Shown here in pieces: positions 6,103-23,272 of a stretch of DNA of 64,000 nucleotides. The stretch's first letter is position 1; each line of letters opens with the position of its first letter. The translations under genes were made by a program, and so were the position numbers. Below the pieces are notes generated by a model. That model saw only the letters and a list, made by a program, of their open reading frames with translations. It ran no database searches and had not been told where the DNA came from. The DNA is from Comamonadaceae bacterium ALPHA2B (GTDB taxonomy: Bacteria; Pseudomonadota; Gammaproteobacteria; Burkholderiales; Burkholderiaceae_C): contig SCOE01000032.1 in the NCBI GenBank assembly GCA_005503065.1, forward strand, positions 1-64,000. Direction: 5' to 3'.

Positions 6103-7542
6103 TCAATCGGCTTGGAAGAAGGACTTGATGTTCATGTGGTCGAGCAGACCCTCCCGTCCCTGCGCGACGCCCAAGCCACTGTCCTTGATTCCAAGGAAGG
6201 GCATCTCCGGCGCCGTGACGTTGCAAGTGTTCATTCCGAGCGCGCCCACCTTGATACCGTCCCGGATCTGGCGCGCAGTCTTCAGCGAACGGGTGAAGGC
6301 GTACCCGGCGAGGCCGAACTGCACGTCGTTGGCCAGCCTGATCGCCTCCTCGAGCGAGCTGAATCGTACGAACGGCGCGATCGGGCCGAAGGGTTCTTCG
6401 TGCAGGATCTTGGCGCTCAGAGGAACATCAGTCAGCACCGTCGGCTTCCAGAAGAATCCCTTGGCTCTGGCCCGCTCGACCATGCCGGTCGCGACCCTCG
6501 CACCGGCCGCTACGGCGTCCTGCGCGAGGTCTTCCATGGCGTCGAGACGCCGCTCATGGGCCAGCGGCCCCATCTGCGAGGTGTCGAGCAAGCCGTCCTC
6601 CATCCGCAACGCTTCCGCCTGTGCGGAGAAGCGGCTCACGAACGCATCGAAGATCGCGTCGTGCACGAAGAATCGGGTGGGTGCGATGCAGATCTGCCCG
6701 GCATTCCGGAACTTGCTCGCGACGGACTGCGCGACCGCGCGATCCAGGTCGGCGTCATCCATGATGATGACGGGCGAGTGGCCGCCGAGCTCGAACGTCA
6801 CCTTCTTCAGCGCTCGCCCGGCCAACTGCGCCAGATGGCGACCTACCGGCACCGATCCGGTGAACGAGATCTTCCGTATGTGGGGCGATTGGATCAGCGT
6901 CTCCGACACCAATTCAGGCTGCCCGAACACCACTTGGATGGCGTTCGCGGGGACGCCTGCCGCAAGACATAGACGCGCCAGATGCAGTACTGCGCTCGGT
7001 GCTTCCTCGGCAGGCTTGATCACGACCGAACATCCTGCGGCAAGCGCATGTGCCACCTTCCGTGCTGCCAGCGCCAGCGGATAGTTCCATGGAGAGAAGG
7101 CGGCAACGGGACCGATCGGCTCGAGCAGGACCATCTGCTGGATCTCCTGCGCCCGCGAGGGAACAACGCGCCCGTACATGCGCTTGCCTTCCTCGGCCAG
7201 CCAGTCGAAGAGATCTGCAGCGCCCGCCACCTCGCCATTCGCTTCCCTGAGGGTCTTGCCTTGCTCTTCGGTCAACATCCGGGCCAACTGGCTGGCGTCA
7301 CGGCGCATGGCGTCCGCGACGCTTCTGAGCACGCCAGAGCGAACGATGGGTGTCTTGGTGCTCCATTCGACGAACCCAGCTGCTGCTCGCTCTGCGGCAT
7401 CAGCGAGGTCCTCTTTGCTGATGAGTGTCAGTTGAGCGAGAGCATCGCCCGTGGCTGGATTGACGACAGGCCGCGTGGCGCGCCCCCCTCCCATGACAGT
7501 TTCACCGCCGATCAACGCGCCAATCGACTTCAACGTGCTCAC
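6103..7542 (-). CDS. NAD(P)-dependent aldehyde dehydrogenase (succinate-semialdehyde dehydrogenase-like)
   Basis: ALDH superfamily enzyme, 479 aa, oxidising an aldehyde to a carboxylate in the cytoplasm. The catalytic glutamate is in FELGGHSP and the nucleophilic cysteine in NAGQICIAPTRF; both are intact, as is the FTGSVPVG cofactor loop. The start is set at the GTG at 7542 because AAGGAG lies 6 bp upstream; the TTG two codons earlier would abut that site. First gene of the operon that continues into livK, livH, livM, livG, livF and the GMC oxidoreductase. The perfect operator at 7578-7596 lies about 45 bp upstream. With an intact GMC enzyme it would form an alcohol-to-acid pair. Confidence 0.9.
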   Translation of the reverse strand: MSTLKSIGALIGGETVMGGGRATRPVVNPATGDALAQLTLISKEDLADAAERAAAGFVEWSTKTPIVRSGVLRSVADAMRRDASQLARMLTEEQGKTLREANGEVAGAADLFDWLAEEGKRMYGRVVPSRAQEIQQMVLLEPIGPVAAFSPWNYPLALAARKVAHALAAGCSVVIKPAEEAPSAVLHLARLCLAAGVPANAIQVVFGQPELVSETLIQSPHIRKISFTGSVPVGRHLAQLAGRALKKVTFELGGHSPVIIMDDADLDRAVAQSVASKFRNAGQICIAPTRFFVHDAIFDAFVSRFSAQAEALRMEDGLLDTSQMGPLAHERRLDAMEDLAQDAVAAGARVATGMVERARAKGFFWKPTVLTDVPLSAKILHEEPFGPIAPFVRFSSLEEAIRLANDVQFGLAGYAFTRSLKTARQIRDGIKVGALGMNTCNVTAPEMPFLGIKDSGLGVAQGREGLLDHMNIKSFFQAD

Positions 7543-7577
7543 GCTCAACTCCTTCGATACTCAAATATCCGACTTTA

Positions 7578-7596
7578 CAAATGGTAGGTCCATTTG
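7578..7596. promoter_or_regulatory. predicted GntR operator upstream of the aldehyde dehydrogenase operon
   Basis: Perfect inverted repeat CAAATGG-TAGGT-CCATTTG with 7-bp arms and a 5-bp spacer, centred at 7587, 45 bp before the GTG start at 7542. The same core recurs before most other transcription units of the island. Binding by the regulator at 14027-14854 is inferred from co-occurrence. Confidence 0.75.
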
Positions 7597-7812: not shown

Positions 7813-8829
7813 TCAACCGCCAGTCATACCGGCGTCGGCAATCACCTTGCGCCAGCGCTGTGCATCGGCTTTGAGCCGGTCTGCGAACTCATCGTTTCCG
7901 AGCGGCGGCACGCCCGAGCCCGTTTTCGCGATCGCGTCACGCACCACGGGGTCGCTCATGACCTCCCTCAGCGCACTCGATAGAGTCTTCAGTGTTTCCG
8001 CCGGCAGCTTTGCCGGCCCCACGACGCCGATCGTCGACTCGACCACAAAGTCCTTGACTCCCGCCTCCGTGGCAGTCCGAACATCCGGCAGCTCCGGCAA
8101 TCTCTCCGCACCGCTAACCGCCAGCGCCCGGACCTTATCCGCCTTGATCTGAGGCAGGATCGAGGATGAAGACTCGAACATGAAGTCCACGGTGCCAGCC
8201 ATCAATTGCGACACGTTCTCAGCGCCCCCCTTGAACGGGATGTGCGTTGCTTGGAACCCGGTCGTACGTGCAAACAACACCGTGGCGAGATGGTGGCTGC
8301 TACCAACACCCGAGGAGCCGTAGTTGAGCTTGCCTGGGTTCGCCTTGCCGAAAGCCACCAGTTCCTCGAGGGAGCGGAACTTCGACTGCGGGGAGGCAAC
8401 GAGGATGAACGGTGCGCGCGCCGCCATCACCAAGGGCGAAAAATCGCGGACCGCATCATATGGCGGGGGACTCATGAGCAGCGGAGCGATGCCGAGGTTC
8501 GTGCTCCCGCCTATCCCGATCATGTAGCCGTCAGCCGGCGAGTTCGCCACCACCTTCATGCCCAGCGTCCCCGCGGCGCCGGCTCGATTCATCGCGACGA
8601 CCGGAACCTTCAGACGCTCCGAGAGGCCCTTGGCGATGATCCGCCCAATGAGATCGGATGTCCCGCCGGCCGTATACGGCACCACCAGTTCGATGGCGCG
8701 CGATGGATAGGCGGTCTCTGCCTTTACGAGCCCCGGCAGGGCGCCGAGCATCGACGCGGATGCCGCCAGGAGCAGACGTCGACGACTGATCGAGCACTCG
8801 GCCGTTTTCGCTGAGCGTGGGGTATTCAT
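7813..8829 (-). CDS. Bug/TctC-family tripartite tricarboxylate receptor
   Basis: Periplasmic solute-binding protein of the Bug family, 338 aa. The N-terminus has SRRRLLLAASASMLGALPG, a signal peptide with consecutive arginines, cleaved near VKA-ETA. The Bug signature YPSRAIELVVPYTAGGTSD follows. The ATG at 8829 has GGAGAC a few bases upstream. These proteins bind carboxylates or aromatic acids; no TctA/TctB membrane partners are encoded in the window, so it is an orphan receptor. Last gene of the operon flavin reductase - thiolase-like - DUF35 - amidohydrolase - TctC. Confidence 0.9.
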   Translation of the reverse strand: MNTPRSAKTAECSISRRRLLLAASASMLGALPGLVKAETAYPSRAIELVVPYTAGGTSDLIGRIIAKGLSERLKVPVVAMNRAGAAGTLGMKVVANSPADGYMIGIGGSTNLGIAPLLMSPPPYDAVRDFSPLVMAARAPFILVASPQSKFRSLEELVAFGKANPGKLNYGSSGVGSSHHLATVLFARTTGFQATHIPFKGGAENVSQLMAGTVDFMFESSSSILPQIKADKVRALAVSGAERLPELPDVRTATEAGVKDFVVESTIGVVGPAKLPAETLKTLSSALREVMSDPVVRDAIAKTGSGVPPLGNDEFADRLKADAQRWRKVIADAGMTGG

Positions 8830-8895
8830 CGTAGGTCTCCATGTTCTAGTCAGTATGCGGACCGAGTCGCGCAGAACCGGTCCGACAGGCGATCC

Positions 8896-10119
8896 TCAAA
8901 GCGGCTTCTTGGCGGCTTCGATGTCGATGCGGAACACACGTGCAGCATTCAGGCCCAGGATCTTGGCGCGCTCCTCATCCTTCAGACCACTCATGTTGCG
9001 CTCGACGGCCTCCGCGGAATGCGGCCAGGTGCCCTCGTGATGGGGATAGTCATTCGCCCACATGAAGTTGTCCATCAGGCCGTACTTCTGGGCGAAGTCC
9101 AGGCCTGCCTGGTCTTCACCGAACGTGGAAAAGCCGTTGGACCTGTAGTATTCGCTCGGCAAGTTCCTGAGCTTGGGCCGGACGGCGAAGTGATGCTTCT
9201 TGTAGGCCTCGTCCATCGTCTCCAGCATCCACGGAATGAATCCGATGCCAGCCTCGACCGAGCCGAAACGCAGCTTGGAGAACCGCTCAATAACGCCAGA
9301 CGCGCAGAGGTTGACCAGCGGCGAGATGGCCGGTGCCAGTGCATGCCAGACATAGTTGACCACGGCACCGCCGACACCGCGTGTCGTGCGAGGGTCCATG
9401 CCGGTTGCCACATGGAAGCACAGCGTCATGTCCGCGTCCTGCAACGCCGCCCAGATGGGATCGAAGTCCGCGTTGTTGTAGTTGAGCTCTCCCACCTTGG
9501 GAGGGCCGAACATCGGCTTCACCGGAAATGCGACAGCGGTGTAGCCGAGCTTCGCCGTGCGCTGGATCTCGGCAACGGCGCCCTCGATATCTCCGGGCGA
9601 GATCGCAGCGACCGGGATCAGCTTTGTGCTGTATGGACCGAATTCCTCCCACGCCCAGTCGTTGTAGACGGCGCACTGGGCCTGTGCAAATACAGGGTCG
9701 GGCGTGTACCACATTGCCAGGCCCTTGTTCGGAAAGATGATCTCTGCATCAATGCCGTCCACCACGTGGTCGGCCAGACGATTCTTGGCGCCCGCCCCGG
9801 ATCGAGAGCGGATCTGGTCCTGGCCGGACAGGTCGGCCAGCACCAGGCGATCGGGGCGATCGTTGCCTTCCGATTTGCGCCAGCGAACCCCGTTGTCGTC
9901 GATCCATGTCTTGGGCAACCGGTCCCGATACTTGGGATCGATGCGCTTTTCCCAAAGATCCGGCGGCTCGTTGGCATGGGTGTCAGCCGACACCATGAGG
10001 TACTTGTTCGGATCGTTCGGTCGGGCCGTACGCGTCCACCCTTCAACACCAGGGGTCTCCTTTCGCCATGCGTTCACTTCATCGCAGACGATCTCGCGCT
10101 TCTCAATCACTTCAGTCAT
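8896..10119 (-). CDS. amidohydrolase-2 family metal-dependent hydrolase or decarboxylase (ACMSD-like)
   Basis: 407-aa TIM-barrel enzyme resembling the group of 2-amino-3-carboxymuconate-6-semialdehyde decarboxylase and related aromatic-acid decarboxylases. Candidate metal or active-site residues are the D and H in SADTHANEP, the His in LCFHVATGMD, and the Asp in NDYPHHEGTWPHS near the C-terminus. AGGAGC precedes the ATG at 10119. It sits between the DUF35 gene and tctC in one operon. A decarboxylation or C-C/C-N hydrolysis step is inferred; the substrate is unknown. Confidence 0.85.
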   Translation of the reverse strand: MTEVIEKREIVCDEVNAWRKETPGVEGWTRTARPNDPNKYLMVSADTHANEPPDLWEKRIDPKYRDRLPKTWIDDNGVRWRKSEGNDRPDRLVLADLSGQDQIRSRSGAGAKNRLADHVVDGIDAEIIFPNKGLAMWYTPDPVFAQAQCAVYNDWAWEEFGPYSTKLIPVAAISPGDIEGAVAEIQRTAKLGYTAVAFPVKPMFGPPKVGELNYNNADFDPIWAALQDADMTLCFHVATGMDPRTTRGVGGAVVNYVWHALAPAISPLVNLCASGVIERFSKLRFGSVEAGIGFIPWMLETMDEAYKKHHFAVRPKLRNLPSEYYRSNGFSTFGEDQAGLDFAQKYGLMDNFMWANDYPHHEGTWPHSAEAVERNMSGLKDEERAKILGLNAARVFRIDIEAAKKPL

Positions 10120-10185: not shown

Positions 10186-10614
10186 TCACGGCCCTTGAAG
10201 GCGAGCGGCGAACAATGGCCCGTCCTCGAATGCCATGACGACCATGCGCACCTTGCTGCCCACCGCCACGCCGGCGCCGTCAGGCACGACGAGAGGACAC
10301 GCCAGCCGGATGCGGCGCTCCAAGTCCACAATGCCGACCGTGTAAGGAGCCAGAGGTTGAAACACTGCGGGGGCGGCATGGATGCGGGTCCAGCTGTACA
10401 ACAGCCCTTCGACTGGCATGTCTACCCACTCGATCTCCTCGGACCAGCAGTGTGGACACACGACCTTGGGGGGGAAGGTCTGATTTCCGCAAGCCCGACA
10501 TCGCGTCGTCGAAAAGCGGCGTGAAGCGAGGTCGTTCCAAAAGCGCTCTGTGAACGCGGATGCTCGCGGTGGGTAGGGTCGCCGGCCGGCGACCTGATGG
10601 ACATCGAGCATCAT
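10186..10614 (-). CDS. DUF35 OB-fold / zinc-ribbon protein (partner of the thiolase-like protein)
   Basis: 142-aa protein with a rubredoxin-like zinc ribbon (CRACG...CPHC, about residues 39-56) followed by an OB-fold (LYSWTRIHAAP, YTVGIVDLE). DUF35 proteins form complexes with thiolase-like or SCP2-type proteins and take part in acyl-CoA side-chain retro-aldol chemistry, as ChsH2/Ltp2 do for steroids. Its ATG overlaps the thiolase-like stop by 4 bp, so equimolar synthesis and complex formation are expected. Confidence 0.88.
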   Translation of the reverse strand: MMLDVHQVAGRRPYPPRASAFTERFWNDLASRRFSTTRCRACGNQTFPPKVVCPHCWSEEIEWVDMPVEGLLYSWTRIHAAPAVFQPLAPYTVGIVDLERRIRLACPLVVPDGAGVAVGSKVRMVVMAFEDGPLFAARLQGP

Positions 10615-11804
10615 TGGACCCCCTCGAAGACATGGACGATGGCTGCGTTGTAGTTGCCCAGTTCGCCCGTTGTCGCAGCCAGACGCGCGTTCGCGACCTG
10701 TCGATCTCCGGCCCGGCCTCGCAGCTGCTCCGCAACCTCCACTAGGTTATAGAGTGACGTCACCAAGGCAGGATGGCCACGCGAGGTAAGGCCTCCCGAT
10801 GGGGAGATCGGAATGTCGCCACCGAGACGGGTGCGACCTTCGGCCGCGGCCTTCGCGCCATGACCGCGCGCCACCAGACCGATGGCCTCGCTGACCAGAA
10901 CCTCAACGATTGTGCAAGGTGCGTACAGTTCGGCGAAGTCCAGGTCAGCGGCCGACACCCCGCCGGCCTCGTATGCCGAACGTGCCGCGGTGGCCGCAGC
11001 ATTGAAGGCAATCATGTCCCCCGGGACATCGTCGATTTGATGAACGCCCTCGTGGTAGAAGCCCCGCCCCCTCAGGAGCACATAGGGCTTGCCCAGGCCC
11101 TTTGCGACGTCTTCAGAGGCGAGGACCACGCAGACGGCTCCGTCGCCGCGAGGGGGCACGTCGTAGAGGCCAAGCGGCTCCACGATGGGACGTTGCTCGA
11201 GAACCTGCTCGAGGGTCAGTGGCTTGCGGTACTGCGCCAGCGGATTGCGCATCGCGTGACCGCGATTCTTCACCGCGACGGCCGCCAGCTCGGCGCGTGT
11301 CGCGCCGTACTCATGCATGTATCGCATGGCGTCCATCGCGTACCAAGAGATCGGCGTGAATCCACCAGGCGTGTGGAAGTCAACGTCGCCCGTGCTACGC
11401 ATGCTCGCCATCATGTGATCGTAGGAAGGCGTGGCACTCTCCATGTTGATGCCCAGGCACAGCGCCACATCGGCCTGGCCCAGCAGAATCTGGTTGGCCG
11501 CCTGGTCGAACGCCAATGCACCCGTCATGCCGTTTCCCATGACCTCCATCGCCACGCCCGTGTAAGCCAGTCGCAGATGACTCGTCAGGAAAGTATGGAA
11601 GTAGCTTTGTCGTGTGTAGGGGCGTGGCACGGTGAAGACCGCGCTTTGGATGTCCTTCTTGTCGACGCCGGCGTCGTGCACGGCATCCCGCACAACCTTG
11701 ACCATGAGTTCATGCTCAAGGACTTGCAGCGCGTCATCTTTGGACGTCTGCAGTTTTCCAACGGGCAGAGCATTCGCGCCGATGATTGCAACTCTTCGAC
11801 TCAT
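10611..11804 (-). CDS. thiolase-like / lipid-transfer (Ltp2-type) protein without the nucleophilic cysteine
   Basis: 397-aa thiolase-fold protein of the SCP-x/Ltp group. The position of the thiolase nucleophile is Met93 (MGNGMTG) instead of Cys, while SGGLTSRGHP and the closing QLRGRAGDRQV are kept. Tyr294 in AELYAPC and Tyr352 in SLYNLVE are candidates for the catalytic tyrosines reported for Ltp2-type retro-aldolases; this is inferred by position. With the overlapping DUF35 partner this suggests cleavage of a beta-hydroxyacyl-CoA by retro-aldol rather than classical thiolysis. The start lies 2 bp after the flavin reductase-FCD stop. Confidence 0.85.
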   Translation of the reverse strand: MSRRVAIIGANALPVGKLQTSKDDALQVLEHELMVKVVRDAVHDAGVDKKDIQSAVFTVPRPYTRQSYFHTFLTSHLRLAYTGVAMEVMGNGMTGALAFDQAANQILLGQADVALCLGINMESATPSYDHMMASMRSTGDVDFHTPGGFTPISWYAMDAMRYMHEYGATRAELAAVAVKNRGHAMRNPLAQYRKPLTLEQVLEQRPIVEPLGLYDVPPRGDGAVCVVLASEDVAKGLGKPYVLLRGRGFYHEGVHQIDDVPGDMIAFNAAATAARSAYEAGGVSAADLDFAELYAPCTIVEVLVSEAIGLVARGHGAKAAAEGRTRLGGDIPISPSGGLTSRGHPALVTSLYNLVEVAEQLRGRAGDRQVANARLAATTGELGNYNAAIVHVFEGVQ

Positions 11805-11806
11805 CT

Positions 11807-12790
11807 TCAGTGCGAGCTGTACGCAAGAAACTTCGACATCAGGACCTCCTCCGACGCAGACTCAGCGGGCTGCGAGAGAAAGTCCAAGTACCGGCCCAAC
11901 GCATGCTCCGCTGCGGCGCGATCCCGGGTGCGTAGGTGCTTGAGGATCTCCCGGCGCAACGGAACAAGCTCACTGCGCGGCGCGGACGCCACCGCATCGC
12001 TCAAGCTTTGACGCATGACATCGGCGAGGCTGTTGGCCAAGGTCGCCACGATCTCGTTGTGGGTCGCGGCGCCAATCAGCCTGAAGAACTCGACACCCGC
12101 TTCGACACGAGCTTGAGGCAATCCAGCTTCCGCGAATTTCTCCATCTCGACGAGCTTGGCTTCGAGCGCGTTGATGTCCTCGGCAACCGCGTTGCGGCAC
12201 GCCAGCTCCAGCAAAGCGCCGTGGATAAGTCGACGAGCCTCGACGACCTCTGCGGTGCGGGTCGCCGATTGCTGGGACGACTCGATCAGGGCCTTGCTGA
12301 GCAGCATGTAAGCGCCCTTGCAGAAGACCAGTGGGTGGTGGCTGATTTCGTGCTCGAAGCGCTGAACCTGCCCCAAGAAGAGCCAATGATCGCCCGCGTC
12401 ATGCACGGCGAAGGTCGAGCACTCGAAGGTTGCCGCGCAGTCTCTCAATACCGGCAGTCCGTTGACTCCCGCGTCCCATGCGACGCCTTCGAACTTGTCG
12501 GTAATGGCGCTGCTGGCAAAGCGCCCCGAAAGACCCTGTTGCGCACCGGCCAAGATGTTGATCGCGAATCCCTTGGCATTTCGGAACGCCGTGGCGGCAC
12601 GGCTGACCTTTCGCAGGCCCCACGACACCAGCGGCGGATCGAGCGACACGGAGCTGAAGGAATTGCAGGTCAGACCGATCGGCACTCCTTCTTCCGACAC
12701 CGTCGTCAGAATCGCGACGCCGGTGGGGAACAAGGACAATGCGCGCCTGTACTCCTTGACATCAAGGTTTGGCTCGACGGTTGTCTCCAT
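11807..12790 (-). CDS. flavin reductase fused to a C-terminal GntR-type FCD ligand-binding domain
   Basis: 327-aa two-domain protein. Residues 1-168 are a flavin-reductase-like (HpaC/split-barrel) domain: FPTGVAILTT, CNSFSSVSLDPPLVSWGL, and FLGQVQRFE near its end. Such domains make reduced flavin for a two-component monooxygenase. Residues 175-310 look like the all-helical FCD effector domain of GntR regulators, without a DNA-binding helix-turn-helix, and resemble the FCD of the regulator at 14027-14854 (GVEFFRLIGAATHNE versus AVEFFQLIAKATRND). Ligand-gated flavin reduction is inferred, by analogy with the 4-hydroxyphenylacetate hydroxylase reductase that carries a regulatory C-terminal domain. 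First gene of its operon; GGAG lies 7 bp before the ATG. No partner oxygenase is present in the window. Confidence 0.87.
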   Translation of the reverse strand: METTVEPNLDVKEYRRALSLFPTGVAILTTVSEEGVPIGLTCNSFSSVSLDPPLVSWGLRKVSRAATAFRNAKGFAINILAGAQQGLSGRFASSAITDKFEGVAWDAGVNGLPVLRDCAATFECSTFAVHDAGDHWLFLGQVQRFEHEISHHPLVFCKGAYMLLSKALIESSQQSATRTAEVVEARRLIHGALLELACRNAVAEDINALEAKLVEMEKFAEAGLPQARVEAGVEFFRLIGAATHNEIVATLANSLADVMRQSLSDAVASAPRSELVPLRREILKHLRTRDRAAAEHALGRYLDFLSQPAESASEEVLMSKFLAYSSH

Positions 12791-12825: not shown

Positions 12826-12842
12826 AAATGGTCCGTCCATTT
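12826..12842. promoter_or_regulatory. predicted GntR operator upstream of the flavin reductase operon
   Basis: Perfect inverted repeat AAATGG-TCCGT-CCATTT centred at 12834, 44 bp before the ATG at 12790. A TATATT hexamer (minus strand, about 12819-12824) immediately downstream could be the -10 element, so a bound repressor would cover the core promoter. Same core as at 7578, 13780 and 18248. Confidence 0.75.
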
Positions 12843-12924
12843 TGCCTGCGTACGATCGCGCGGTCAACTTGGGCACAGAGGGGTTATCCCCTAGCTGTGA
12901 GCCGCGGAGCAGGCGCCCATCGGC

Positions 12925-13245
12925 TTATCGCAGGCTGGAGAACGCAGCAGGCGCGAGCAGCCGATTGCTCATCGTGCTGATCATCGGGCGGACCTTTGCC
13001 AGATACGCCTGCCAGGCAGGCGAGCCGGCCAGCTTCGCGCGACGCGCCTGCCGATCTTCAAAGCTCTCGTAGCGCCAAAGACTCACCACGGCGTTGAGCT
13101 CCCCCGTTTCGGTCGCAAAGTAGCCAAGTGGCGCGCCCAGCGCCTCACTCTGTACATTCAGTCCTTCTTCCTGATAGAGCTTCAGGTAGTCAGCAGGTGT
13201 TGCCGAGGTGGTCAGGACGTAGCAGCGTTCTTCGATGATGGCCAT
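12925..13245 (-). CDS. NIPSNAP family protein
   Basis: 106-aa ferredoxin-fold alpha/beta-barrel protein of the NIPSNAP family: an early ERCYVLT strand, central GYFATETGELNAVVSLWRYE, and closing WQAYLAKVRPMI. Small proteins of this type are frequent in catabolic operons and some are monooxygenase- or isomerase-like, but no activity can be assigned. It lies 84 bp downstream of the cupin gene and is probably co-transcribed with it. Confidence 0.85.
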   Translation of the reverse strand: MAIIEERCYVLTTSATPADYLKLYQEEGLNVQSEALGAPLGYFATETGELNAVVSLWRYESFEDRQARRAKLAGSPAWQAYLAKVRPMISTMSNRLLAPAAFSSLR

Positions 13246-13329: not shown

Positions 13330-13731
13330 CTATTTGAGTTCTTTTCCAGCCAACTCGCCGACGAGGAAGCGGTTGGGCTTGAGGAACATGCTCAGTACCA
13401 GAGCGCCATTCGGCGAGCGCGCGATGTGGCGATTGCCCTGAGGGCGCCAGACATAGTCGCCTTCGCGCACCTCACCCTCGTCGTCGACGATGCTGCCCTT
13501 CAGGACGTAGGTCTGCTCAATCTCGACGTGTTCGTGCAGCGGTAGTTCCGTGCCTGGCTCCCATCGAAAGAGAGCGGTCATGAGGCCCGTCTTCTCGTCC
13601 TGAAGCAGGATCTTCATGTCGATGCCCGCCGTGGGCGTCGGCTTCCAAGGCAAGGCATCGACGGACACATATCGAGAGTCCAAGGGCGCCAGTTGGGCCT
13701 CGTTGGCCATGTTCGGGGTGTGCGCAGTCAT
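13330..13731 (-). CDS. cupin-domain protein (ChrR-like)
   Basis: 133-aa single-domain cupin. Motif 1 is PLHEHVEIEQTYVLKGS (metal ligands His, His, Glu) and motif 2 is GDYVWRPQGNRHIA. A dioxygenase, isomerase or ligand-sensing role is possible. The start is the ATG at 13731; an in-frame ATG seven codons later (MANEAQL) is an alternative. It heads a short operon with the NIPSNAP gene and is preceded by an operator at 13780-13794. Confidence 0.85.
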   Translation of the reverse strand: MTAHTPNMANEAQLAPLDSRYVSVDALPWKPTPTAGIDMKILLQDEKTGLMTALFRWEPGTELPLHEHVEIEQTYVLKGSIVDDEGEVREGDYVWRPQGNRHIARSPNGALVLSMFLKPNRFLVGELAGKELK

Positions 13732-14026: not shown

Positions 14027-14854
14027 TCACTTGCGGATCGAGCGGCCGGTGCTGCGCGCAGCTTGGGAGCTTGGCGGCTTGAGCTTCAGTGCAGTTGTCT
14101 TCGCCGCTTTCGTCGCTCCGCGGCTGTCGAGCACATCGCTGTGCACGATCGCGAGGTAGTGATCCATCTCAGCCACCGCTTTTGCAGTCGCACCGGCACG
14201 CATGTACTTCAGCATGTTCAGACGCACCGGGATCAACTCCGGTCGGAATTTGGCCGGCTGCCGCTCGATCGCGAAGTACCGAAGAATGGATCCCAGCGAG
14301 TCCATCAAAACGACCAGGACGTCGTTTCTTGTCGCTTTGGCGATGAGTTGGAAGAATTCGACTGCGGCTTCCGCGCGCCGGGTGAGATCGCCCGCTTCGG
14401 CCCAGCGCTGGATGTCCTTGATGTTGGCCTCGATCGCGTCGAAATCCTCGGCTTCACCGCGCTCGCAGGCCAGCCTCACGACTGCGCCACTGATGATGAC
14501 GCGCACTTCCGCCAGGCTGCTCGCAGAAATGTGGCCCAGCATGGCCAGGTCATGAAGCGATCGCGTCAACATTTCTGGGCTGCCTTCGCACACGAAGGCA
14601 CCACCCTTGACGCCCTTGCGCGTTTCGACGATTCCCGATATCTCGAGCGTCCTCAGGGCTTCGCGGATGGCCGGCCTGCCTACTCCGAACTCCATGGCCA
14701 GATCTCGCTCGGCAGGCAACCGATCGCCGGACTTCAGTTCGCCCAGCATCAATTTGTTCTTGATCTGTTCGCACACCCCCTCGAAGACCCGTGGCGTCTT
14801 CACCCGGTGGAATGTGCGGCGCGGCGCGGCCGCTTGTTCAACTTCAGTACTCAT
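14027..14854 (-). CDS. GntR family transcriptional regulator, FadR/FCD subfamily
   Basis: 275-aa regulator. An N-terminal winged helix-turn-helix (about residues 20-90) contains LKSGDRLPAERDLAMEFGVGRPAIREALRTL; the FCD effector domain (about 110-240) is all-helical. The FCD sequence has EFFQLIAKATRND where many FCD domains carry metal-binding Asp and His, so a metal-independent ligand site is possible. It is the only regulator gene of the island and lies amid units bearing the shared palindrome, hence the likely local repressor. The tail after residue 245 is basic and low-complexity. A degenerate operator about 85 bp upstream suggests autoregulation. Confidence 0.9.
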   Translation of the reverse strand: MSTEVEQAAAPRRTFHRVKTPRVFEGVCEQIKNKLMLGELKSGDRLPAERDLAMEFGVGRPAIREALRTLEISGIVETRKGVKGGAFVCEGSPEMLTRSLHDLAMLGHISASSLAEVRVIISGAVVRLACERGEAEDFDAIEANIKDIQRWAEAGDLTRRAEAAVEFFQLIAKATRNDVLVVLMDSLGSILRYFAIERQPAKFRPELIPVRLNMLKYMRAGATAKAVAEMDHYLAIVHSDVLDSRGATKAAKTTALKLKPPSSQAARSTGRSIRK

Positions 14855-17339: not shown

Positions 17340-18203
17340 TTATCTGGGCACGTGACCGAGCATGAGTGCCGCGGCCTCGGACGCTCGCATGCCTTCCTTC
17401 ACACCCAATGCCTGGGCGCTCTTGTTCGCCGCCGAGATGACGCCGTCGTTGTAGGTACTGAGGGCATCGCCGATCCTCGCGCTGTCTGTGGAGACCGTGG
17501 CAGCAGGGATTCCACATAGCTCCTCGACCGCGTCCAGACCACTGATGCCCGTGCGATTCAGGCCGATGCCCGCGTCGTTCGCAATCAGGCCCTTCGGACG
17601 GGCCCGCAGCGCATACTGCGCCATCACCTTGCCTCCATGGGACGCCACGCAGAACACGTCATTGGGATGCTCCCCTTCGACGCGAGAGAACGACCAGACC
17701 GCGTAGATCTTGCCGGACGCAGTGGAGACCACCTCATGGACGGCCTCATCGACGATGCCATCGAAGTTGATCGCGCGGCCTTTGGGCGCCTTCAACATCA
17801 GCTTTCCGGCTTCGCCGCCCGTCATGCCGACTCGAACGCCCAATGCCTCAGCGGCCTTGTTGACCTGGCGGACATGGCCGGTGACGAGCGTCATTCCCTC
17901 GGACAGGCCTGCCTCCATCGTCGCGATCGACGCCGCAGGAACACCAAACCGATCGGCGAGGGCCAGTCCTCCGGAGCCCGCGTTGTCTTTACCGGGTCCG
18001 CCCTCGTGCGCAATCCACGCCTTCACGCCGGGGCGCATAGGCATTGCGCCTGTCGGTGCTCCAGCGAACGACGCGCCCAGGACCACGTCGTTGAGCCACG
18101 GTTCGTGCTCGAAGTAGCTCAGCGAGTCCGCAACCACCACGCGGCCATCGTCACCGCCATCGAACCATACCGTGGGTGCCATTCCTTGAATCTGATCAAC
18201 CAT
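17340..18203 (-). CDS. unrecognised protein with an internal duplication
   Basis: 287-aa protein, family not recognised. Two similar halves are visible: residues 60-136 and 204-282 align over about 78 positions, for example FGVPAASIAT with CGIPAATVST, and EALGVRVGM..EAGKLML with QALGVKEGM..EAAALML. There is no signal peptide or membrane segment, so it is probably cytoplasmic. The ATG at 18203 follows GGAGGCTAAGGAAC. First gene of the operon with the CoA-transferase and a TctC, preceded by an operator. A catabolic role is inferred from context alone; ligand binding or an enzyme of a new family are both possible. Confidence 0.8.
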   Translation of the reverse strand: MVDQIQGMAPTVWFDGGDDGRVVVADSLSYFEHEPWLNDVVLGASFAGAPTGAMPMRPGVKAWIAHEGGPGKDNAGSGGLALADRFGVPAASIATMEAGLSEGMTLVTGHVRQVNKAAEALGVRVGMTGGEAGKLMLKAPKGRAINFDGIVDEAVHEVVSTASGKIYAVWSFSRVEGEHPNDVFCVASHGGKVMAQYALRARPKGLIANDAGIGLNRTGISGLDAVEELCGIPAATVSTDSARIGDALSTYNDGVISAANKSAQALGVKEGMRASEAAALMLGHVPR

Positions 18204-18247: not shown

Positions 18248-18262
18248 AATGGTCTTTCCATT
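18248..18262. promoter_or_regulatory. predicted GntR operator upstream of the duplicated-protein operon
   Basis: Inverted repeat AATGG-TCTTT-CCATT centred at 18255, 52 bp before the ATG at 18203. A TATTAT-like -10 element follows directly on the minus strand (about 18238-18244). The rest of 18204-18524 shows no gene. Confidence 0.72.
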
Positions 18263-21688: not shown

Positions 21689-22404
21689 TCAGTCGCCGAG
21701 GTAGGCGCGGCGAACCGCGTCGTTGCTCTTGATCTCATCGGCCGTGCCGGCGAGTACGACACGCCCGTTTTCCACCACATAGGCGCGGCTGGCGAACCGA
21801 AGTGACAGGCCAGCGTTCTGCTCGACCAGGAGAATGGAAACGCCCTGCTCGGTGTTGATCCTTCGCAGGATGAAGAAGATCTCCTTGACAACCAGCGGGG
21901 CAAGCCCAAACGAGGGCTCATCCAGCAGCAGCAACCGTGGCTGGCCCATGAGCGCTCTTCCGATCGCGAGCATCTGTTGCTCACCGCCGGACAAGGTCCC
22001 GGCTTGCTGAAGCCGCCTTTCCTTCAGTCGGGGGAAGTAGTCGTAGATTCGAGCGAGCTCGGCATCCAAGCCCGAGACATCTCGTCGTGCGAAGCGGCCA
22101 AGGCGGAGGTTTCCTCGACAGCAAGCGAGAGAAACGTGCCTCTGCCGTCCGGCACGTGGCCGACACCCAGGCGAGCAATCTGCTCCGTGGACTTGTTCGC
22201 TATCGACTGTCCAAAGAGATTGATCGACCCTTGAGGGCGGATCATCATGTGGCAGATTGCGCGCAGGGTGGAGGTCTTTCCCGCCCCGTTGGCGCCCAAA
22301 AGAGCCACAACCTCGCCGACCGCAACGTCAAGCGTGATGTTGTGCAATGCCGCGGTCGCACCATAGGACCCCGACACATTCCTCAGGCTCAATGCGTAGT
22401 TCAT
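21689..22404 (-). pseudogene. livF: LivF ATPase of the second importer, split by a one-base frameshift
   Basis: Two reading frames together make one normal LivF (about 238 aa). Residues 1-93 carry Walker A GANGAGKTST and end correctly at GRGTFLSLAVEE; the frame then runs into ETSALAASHDEM and stops. Restoring one T to the TTT run at 22110-22112 (an A on the coding strand) gives EENLRLGRFARRDVSGLDAE and joins the second frame with LSGGEQQML and LLLLDEPSFGLAP. Either a recent natural frameshift or a homopolymer sequencing error; all other residues look healthy. If real, this importer would need the LivF at 1564-2283. Confidence 0.88.
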
Positions 22405-23261
22405 GCTTCGTGCAAGCTGAGGTGGGCCTGTGGTGCAGCCGATTTGTCCATGGGATCCCCGTCTTCGCCCAGGTAGGCTCGGACCACTTCCGGATGGACC
22501 GACACCTCCCTGGGCGTGCCTTCTGCCATCTTCTTGCCGAAGTTCAGCGCGACCACATGATCCGACACCCCCATGACGAGGCCCATGTGATGTTCGACAA
22601 GCAAAGTGGTAACGCCCATGTCATCGCGAATCTTCCGAATCAGCAGTGCGAGCTCACCGATCTCGGAGTGATTCAGGCCGCATGCAGGCTCATCCAGGAG
22701 AAGCAGCTTCGGCCTGCTGGCGAGGGCACGCGCGAGTTCAACTCTCTTCTGGGTCCCAAAGGGCAGCTCGCCCACGGCGATGTCGGCGACGTGCCGAAGA
22801 TCGATCAGGTCCATGAGCTCGTTTGAGAGCGCCTGCGCTTGTTCCTCCACCCGCCTGGAACTCACGGCGCCGAGCATGTCGAGCAACAGGCCGGTCGACA
22901 GGATCGAATGGCATCCCACGAGAATGTTGTCCCTGACGCTCATCGAGCCAAAGAGCGCGAGATTCTGGAAGGTGCGCCCAATCCCGATTTTGGCGATCCC
23001 CGATGTTGGAGCCTTCAGCACGTCGTGCCCGTCGAAGAAGATTTCGCCGCTGCTCGGGGTATAGAGCCGCGACAGGCAATTGAAGAGCGTGCTCTTGCCA
23101 GCGCCGTTGGGTCCAATCAGAGCGCAAACCTCGCCCGAGGCCACTGCGAACGAGACATCGCTCAGCGCGCGGATACCCCCGAAACTGATCGACACCTTCG
23201 CAACGCTCAATAGCGGCGTTGCGAGGTCGCGGCTCTGATAATTGCGCCCAATCCACTTCAT
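22401..23261 (-). CDS. livG: branched-chain amino acid-type ABC transporter ATPase LivG (second importer)
   Basis: 286 aa from the ATG at 23261, somewhat longer than usual at both ends. Walker A GPNGAGKST, signature LPFGTQKRVELARA and Walker B LLLLDEPACGLNHSE are intact. The TTG at 23210 (LSVAKVSISFGG) would give a more usual N-terminus but has no ribosome site; the ATG likewise has only a weak one. First gene of the second importer operon. A promoter-like pair at 23292-23319 and an operator-like palindrome overlapping the ATG lie upstream. Confidence 0.9.
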   Translation of the reverse strand: MKWIGRNYQSRDLATPLLSVAKVSISFGGIRALSDVSFAVASGEVCALIGPNGAGKSTLFNCLSRLYTPSSGEIFFDGHDVLKAPTSGIAKIGIGRTFQNLALFGSMSVRDNILVGCHSILSTGLLLDMLGAVSSRRVEEQAQALSNELMDLIDLRHVADIAVGELPFGTQKRVELARALASRPKLLLLDEPACGLNHSEIGELALLIRKIRDDMGVTTLLVEHHMGLVMGVSDHVVALNFGKKMAEGTPREVSVHPEVVRAYLGEDGDPMDKSAAPQAHLSLHEA

Positions 23262-23272
23262 GGTCTTACCAT
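23260..23272. promoter_or_regulatory. candidate GntR operator at the start of the second liv operon
   Basis: ATGG-TCTTA-CCAT centred at 23266, 4-bp arms, overlapping the livG ATG. The core matches the island operators but the arms are shorter, and the position differs (downstream of the promoter rather than over it). Confidence 0.45.

Follow-up and report, generated by a model that had tools for sequence, protein, structure and literature searches.

FCD domains are the ligand half of GntR regulators, and the locus at 11807-12790 of the window (the whole stretch of DNA analysed, 64,000 nucleotides) raises the question of what such a domain does when it is joined to an enzyme. The first-pass annotation had described a flavin reductase carrying an FCD domain without any DNA-binding part; this was borne out by Pfam, and the ORF lies on the minus strand, the plus strand across 11807-12790 being interrupted by a stop. 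The four peptides quoted there from the fusion and from a regulator of the same island are exact letter matches in both translations. The gene and its domains are:

11807..12790, minus strand: flavin reductase-FCD fusion gene, one ORF, 327 aa
12305..12736, minus strand: Flavin_Reduct (PF01613), residues 19-162, E 6.9e-38 to 9.6e-38
11882..12250, minus strand: FCD (PF07729) without metal-binding histidines, residues 181-303, E 1.3e-16 to 2.5e-16

Both domains passed their curated cut-offs (130.1 bits against 27 for PF01613 and 60.7 bits against 24.3 for the FCD), and the fused FCD is complete, covering profile positions 1-124 of 125. No HTH was found among the Pfam matches of the fusion at E values up to 1, and the remaining match was a single row under its cut-off (E 0.1). 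As judged from its domain content, the fusion is not a GntR-family regulator, since the N-terminal winged HTH is absent, and an NADH-dependent flavin reductase is the best explanation of the sequence. An AlphaFold2 model of moderate quality (pLDDT 77.0, pTM 0.57) contained strands to residue 147 and helices from residue 153 to the C terminus, which agrees with a predicted fold of a barrel preceding a helical bundle. The best Foldseek matches of this model were reductases, including 3RH7 and, as match number 3, C1 (5ZC2); all of the best 50 matches listed were reductases, and there were no FCD structures among them.

We examined the distribution of the fusion by a scan of genome contigs, which returned 46 loci, with the whole fusion in 36 (L009-L044) and the reductase only in 10. 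The taxonomy labels of 32 of the 36 relatives were Comamonadaceae genera, and the other four were MAGs labelled Burkholderiaceae, Proteobacteria or Gammaproteobacteria; two genomes contributed two fusion loci each. The full-length fusion was present in 1/399 order-sample genomes, namely its own genome, five others matching the reductase half alone, and in 8/299 family-sample genomes with its own genome counted. The fusion is thus conserved yet rare, and no fusion of a flavin reductase to an FCD or IclR domain was found among the matches listed from the open-licence literature in PubMed Central. The 37 fusions formed one clade in the reductase tree (SH-aLRT 91, quick method), which fits one fusion event. 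They fall into two groups, group 1 comprising the window fusion and L009-L017 (n=10) and group 2 comprising L018-L044 (n=27).

We compared the fusion with known reductases. C1 (p-hydroxyphenylacetate 3-hydroxylase reductase, 5ZC2/5ZYR) likewise combines a homologous split-barrel flavin reductase with a C-terminal regulator sensor domain, and the two proteins are similar in size (about 310-330 aa), but the sensor of C1 is of the MarR type, whereas that of the fusion is an FCD. According to the excerpted text of PMC10816480, the MarR domain of C1 (AbHpaC) has a self-inhibitory effect that 4-HPA relieves, and gated reductases of this type are termed uncommon by this recent review. The earlier analogy to the aromatic-hydroxylase reductase held at the sequence level: the C1 reductase model NF045919 ranked first among the NCBIfam models matching the reductase half, and 5ZC2 stood third among the structural matches. 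The reductase half matched C1 with an hmmsearch E value of 9.6e-48, and NF045919 scored 163.7 bits against a cut-off of 340, over residues 8-185 only. The fusion is outside the C1 equivalog, its C-terminal domain being unmatched. C1-like reductases from three further loci (L176-L178) aligned to 5ZC2 over their length, as tested for L176.

The SMa0793-type reductases (3RH7) are similar to the fusion in having a homologous reductase with a C-terminal extension, but their extension has no Pfam match and is not an FCD. Of four extended plasmid loci of this type, three have an adjoining luciferase-like monooxygenase (LLM) gene and the fourth has none within the stretch covered, and the plasmid reductases aligned full-length to 3RH7, as tested for P0004. 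In the plasmid loci L169, L170 and L173, the 3RH7-type reductase stands beside an LLM, an alpha/beta hydrolase and an aldehyde dehydrogenase. The genome of the window itself encodes another flavin reductase with a regulator sensor and an adjoining LLM (C66:109765-110895, corresponding to L116:4766-5899); unlike the fusion, it carries IclR_C (E 6.9e-9) and has a separate place in the reductase tree. A full-length relative of this IclR_C reductase was found in 1/299 other order-sample genomes (L175). The C1-like, 3RH7-type and IclR_C reductases all sit apart from the FCD fusions in the reductase tree. A Pseudoduganella reductase (L048:7965-9155) with a 227-residue tail, which gave an IclR_C match under the cut-off (E 0.014), lies elsewhere in this tree.

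With the GntR/FadR-subfamily regulators (PdhR, NanR, DgoR and FadR) the fusion shares a complete FCD, but it has an enzyme in place of the HTH. The solved FCDs closest to it by sequence are those of DgoR, S. agalactiae GntR, PmiR, NanR and PdhR. A regulator of this kind is encoded in the same island:

14027..14854, minus strand: island GntR-FCD regulator, REG-A type, GntR 26-82, E 3.6e-18
14153..14515, minus strand: FCD of the regulator, residues 114-234, E 3.1e-16 to 3.4e-16

The AlphaFold2 model of this regulator had a pLDDT of 72.5 and a pTM of 0.55. BLASTP aligned the fusion with the regulator at 32% identity over 191 aa (E 7e-26) and profile-profile comparison gave a probability of 99.9, both alignments over-running residues 112-170 (reductase/HTH), a stretch that was not counted as homology. 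Among the 33 FCDs found in the genome, the best match of the fusion was the island regulator (83.8 bits), and contig C66 supplied the next two regulators (66.1 and 35.3 bits); the rest scored at most 24.7 bits. Over the FCD only, the fusion was 29% identical to the island regulator (46/156) versus 31% to the C66:149248 regulator (44/143). The proposal that the fused FCD tracks the island regulator was upheld in that the regulator is the best match in the genome and belongs to the same clade; overall identity does not set it apart from the C66:149248 regulator.

Of 86 FCDs placed in a tree, 55 formed a clade (SH-aLRT 99) made up of the 37 fusions, the two C66 regulators and 16 regulators encoded in group 1 loci, and outside it fell 29 other FCDs of the same genome and two actinobacterial FCDs, from L053 and L054. 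The regulators of L053 and L054 were left out of a second, 60-row tree made with a careful search, and the incomplete REG-A copies in L011 and L016 (119 and 128 aa) were left out of the trees and of the REG-A count given below. In the second tree, support was 100/98 for the split from five outgroup rows and 96/90 for the one separating fusions from regulators, and the outgroup joined beside the window's fusion. AU tests rejected none of three arrangements, namely all fusions in one clade (p 0.255), the window fusion paired locally with its regulator (p 0.112) and the fusion with REG-A (p 0.297). The AU test (p 0.112) neither established nor rejected that the FCD likeness arose by a recent duplication within the locus. 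The trees give good support to a common origin of these FCDs, but not to any branching order inside the clade. The sequence comparisons support the view that the fused FCD resembles the island regulator more closely than expected by chance or from general FCD kinship. At L053 and L054 (actinobacteria, near 7941-9192), a reductase gene is followed directly by an unfused GntR-FCD-like ORF whose core, VHHH, is of the metal type.

We investigated the sensor pocket using columns taken from a sequence alignment to DgoR, whose own ligand pose is a docking model. In the excerpted text of PMC7674646, the metal ligands of DgoR are Asp146, His150 and His195, the metal of TM0439 is held by three histidines, and E. 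coli FadR has Phe149, Tyr193 and Tyr215 at the metal positions and no metal. In contrast to DgoR and TM0439, the metal histidines are replaced in the fusion: by the DgoR alignment, the metal-site columns read G-F-R-Y in the window fusion and A-F-R-Y in the island regulator, and the site of the common subtype (Asp/Asn-x3-His ... His ... His) is absent from the window fusion. At least two of the three metal histidine columns are kept in 28/31 other FCDs of the genome. Among nine pocket columns, the island regulator is identical to the fusion in five, versus two for the C66:149248 regulator, and it is in these columns that the special likeness of fusion and island regulator lies.

Three residues of the fusion were followed further, F236 and R279, which occupy metal-site positions, and R272, the third of the trio. 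All three occur together in 37/37 fusions and in 8/8 regulators of the window type (REG-A), but in 0/8 of the second regulators of group 1 loci (REG-B) and in 0/31 other FCDs of the genome. Outside the fusions, in 30 loci from 16 group 2 genomes, the F/R/R combination was found only in the regulators L155-L157, which are REG-A copies. In this sequence form, the outcome favours the expectation that the pocket residues would match better than those of other FCDs in the genome. The column of the ligand-binding Arg102 of DgoR holds Tyr in 27/27 group 2 fusions and Arg in 10/10 group 1 fusions, suggesting that the two groups probably bind different ligands.

The surroundings of the fusion include ABC transporter genes and the following genes:

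6103..7548, minus strand: aldehyde dehydrogenase, PF00171 E 4.6e-150
8896..10119, minus strand: amidohydrolase, PF04909 E 1.1e-24
10186..10614, minus strand: ChsH2-like zinc-ribbon/OB-fold protein, PF01796 E 4e-15, PF12172 E 7.2e-12
10611..11804, minus strand: SCP2-type thiolase, 2 bases past the fusion stop codon, PF22691 E 7.7e-36
12925..13245, minus strand: NIPSNAP-family protein, PF07978 E 6.8e-24
13330..13731, minus strand: cupin protein, PF12973 E 9.2e-24

The contig has 64,157 bases and the island extends to its left end, so the island may be cut.

A palindrome, AATGG-N5-CCATT, was spotted by eye on the fusion and cupin promoters, which makes two of the five window sites seeds. The pattern ATGGNNNNNCCAT occurs at 5 sites in the window versus 0.72 expected, and 0/100 shuffles reached 5. 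The sites and a promoter-like sequence at the fusion are:

7581..7593, no strand: operator-like palindrome upstream of the aldehyde dehydrogenase gene, pattern match
12828..12840, no strand: operator-like palindrome ATGGTCCGTCCAT, 37 bases upstream of the fusion start codon
13781..13793, no strand: operator-like palindrome upstream of the cupin gene, pattern match
18249..18261, no strand: operator-like palindrome upstream of gene 17340-18203, pattern match
23260..23272, no strand: operator-like palindrome at the 5' start of gene 22401-23261 (ABC-transporter ATPase), pattern match
12839..12867, minus strand: sigma70-like promoter TTGACC-17-CAAAAT, its -10 overlapping the palindrome by two bases

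The palindrome at 23260 overlaps the first ATG of the ATPase gene, whose true start may thus be further in. The narrower pattern ATGGWNNNWCCAT occurs at 11 places in the 6.0-Mb genome, five of them within a 15.7-kb stretch of the island, three on C66 and three elsewhere, and its reversed control occurs at two. A binomial estimate for 5/11 sites in the island was 6e-11, two of the five being seeds; without the seeds the count is 3/9. A strict site lies within 250 bp upstream of the fusion in 9/10 loci with the regulator (group 1) and in 0/27 without it (group 2), and the looser TGGNNNNNCCA lies within the same distance in 10/10 group 1 and 0/27 group 2 loci. L014 and L017 have a further site 22 bp upstream of the REG-A ORF, and one genome (G703) has a site just upstream of a REG-B-like regulator.

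FadR-subfamily sites consist of TKGT/ACMA boxes with 3 nt between GT and AC, as given in the excerpted text of PMC4494728. The window motif fits this pattern, with GA for GT in one half of some sites: both halves fit in the 23260 site ATGGTAAGACCAT (complement ATGGTCTTACCAT), and in the fusion site ATGGACGGACCAT one half fits and the other has GA for GT. The overlap of the promoter-like sequence and the palindrome is as for a repressor site; such sigma70-like sites numbered 6 in 18 kb versus 3.3 expected, so that the promoter match is weak alone, chance matches being common. We infer from the site distribution that the palindrome is a candidate binding site of REG-A, and with a candidate operator on the fusion promoter the idea of joint control of gene and enzyme gains evidence.

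On the evidence, the FCD domain appears to act here within an enzyme, and a repressor encoded a few kilobases from it carries a closely related domain. By analogy with C1, the fusion most likely works in the same manner with another sensor and under a repressor of the same sensor type. The reading that we prefer, with a probability of roughly 0.55, is a switch in two layers, in which REG-A would control the gene and the fused FCD would gate the flavin reductase as a built-in metabolite switch. REG-A would repress the fusion operon and other island promoters via ATGGNNNNNCCAT, and repression would end once a metabolite of the pathway bound the REG-A FCD. This metabolite is probably a carboxylate or an acyl-CoA, which the conserved arginines would hold. 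The fused FCD, when empty, would restrain NADH oxidation and flavin reduction, and the same or a neighbouring metabolite would release this brake, as with the MarR domain in C1. Reduced flavin would then pass to an oxygenase, in group 2 the adjoining LLM. The benefit would be to avoid spending NADH on oxygen while no substrate is at hand for oxidation. Both the gating of the enzyme by the fused FCD, proposed by analogy with C1, and the sharing of the ligand are inferred. Ungated reductases waste NADH and make peroxide, and gated ones hence matter for biocatalysis; the FCD would be a second sensor fold for a gated reductase of the C1 type. The shared operator system and the related sensor allow a direct test of whether one sensor is reused at two control levels.

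A narrower version, which we put forward tentatively and hold to be possible rather than probable, is that a sensor of the repressor clade moved once onto the reductase and that one ligand serves both proteins, the same reductase lineage having separately taken up MarR, FCD and IclR sensors. If this were true, one metabolite would both lift repression of the operon and unbrake the operon's enzyme, and the three sensor types on one reductase lineage, with FCD and IclR in one genome, would amount to a wider habit.

Gating by the fused FCD has to be weighed against the explanation that the domain is a structural relic, joined by chance and serving folding, dimer formation or anchoring without a ligand. 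The FCD does diverge faster than the reductase, the mean identity between group 1 and group 2 being 34.6% for the FCD halves versus 59.8% for the reductase halves, and the metal site is gone. However, FCD identity inside each group is 64-74%, and the fusion is retained in 37/37 relatives found. Across these 37 fusions 16 FCD positions are invariant, six of them arginine, as expected of a used pocket, and the six arginines and two invariant phenylalanines stand at the FCD core. Loss of the metal site is, moreover, seen also in the active-looking regulators, and E. coli FadR binds acyl-CoA despite its missing metal site, according to the excerpted text of PMC7674646; structure entry 1H9G is FadR with myristoyl-CoA. 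We therefore consider a ligand-free relic unlikely.

The destination of the reduced flavin was examined through the neighbouring genes. An LLM is encoded in 27/27 group 2 loci, often directly upstream of the fusion (PF00296 E 1.5e-60 for the representative). No FMNH2-dependent oxygenase was found in the island of the window, and the LLM scan was blank on the window's contig; the genome has seven LLMs, all on other contigs, and all ten group 1 genomes have LLMs elsewhere. Near the group 1 fusions, an LLM was found in 1/10 loci, a distant match (E 8e-16) 4 kb from the fusion of L011, and the LLM scan found none on G686:C6, the sister contig of L009. In L010-L017, a FAD_binding_2 gene (cluster c13, KstD/fumarate-reductase-like; E 5e-102 in L015) lies directly 3' of the fusion and there is no LLM cluster, which would fit an acceptor that is a flavoprotein reductase or dehydrogenase and not an oxygenase. 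The c13 gene is missing, however, from the window and L009, and group 2 has LLMs instead, so that a flavoprotein acceptor appears improbable.

We also surveyed the regulators that accompany the fusions. A REG-A-type gene is present in 10/10 group 1 loci, the copies of L010, L011 and L016 being cut by the locus edge, and no related regulator was found in the flanks covered around the group 2 fusions (27/27 loci). The likeness to the island's own regulator, as originally claimed, thus applies to group 1 (10 loci) but not to the 27 of 37 loci without a related regulator in their flanks. Among 16 group 2 genomes searched, two of which are also genomes of group 1 loci, eight had a regulator of the wider clade (E below 1e-60) and the other eight had no regulator better than E 1e-31, the weak regulators examined having a different core (EHGH, DHKH or DHDH). 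The FCD is therefore kept where a related regulator is absent, an argument that its function lies within the enzyme.

This distribution also bears on an explanation in which the fusion is an anti-repressor or partner. FCDs pair, and the fused FCD might form mixed dimers with REG-A and so titrate or redox-tune the repressor; the state of flavin or NADH would then be coupled to transcription, the enzyme being the partner of the regulator rather than its target. The FCD clade and core residues common to fusion and REG-A are consistent with such pairing, as is their co-occurrence in all ten group 1 loci. Retention of the FCD in the 27 fusions whose flanks lack a related regulator argues against it, as do the eight genomes with no regulator better than E 1e-31, where the weak ones examined have another core, and we regard it as very unlikely. 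A heterodimer as the general rule is made unlikely by the genomes without a related regulator. A chance or artefact ORF was ruled out by the 36 independent full-length relatives.

Two observations concern other parts of the island system. The gene at 17340-18203, which has its own palindrome, gave odd Pfam matches, to DUF1805 twice (E 2.9e-10) and to IMS (E 6e-8), and is followed by a CoA-transferase gene. A sister island without the fusion (L115, C66:140000-158000) contains two FCD regulators of the same clade and the same palindrome as in the window, at C66:147576, and it also encodes a FAD_binding_2 oxidoreductase, a ChsH2-like protein and a thiolase-like protein.
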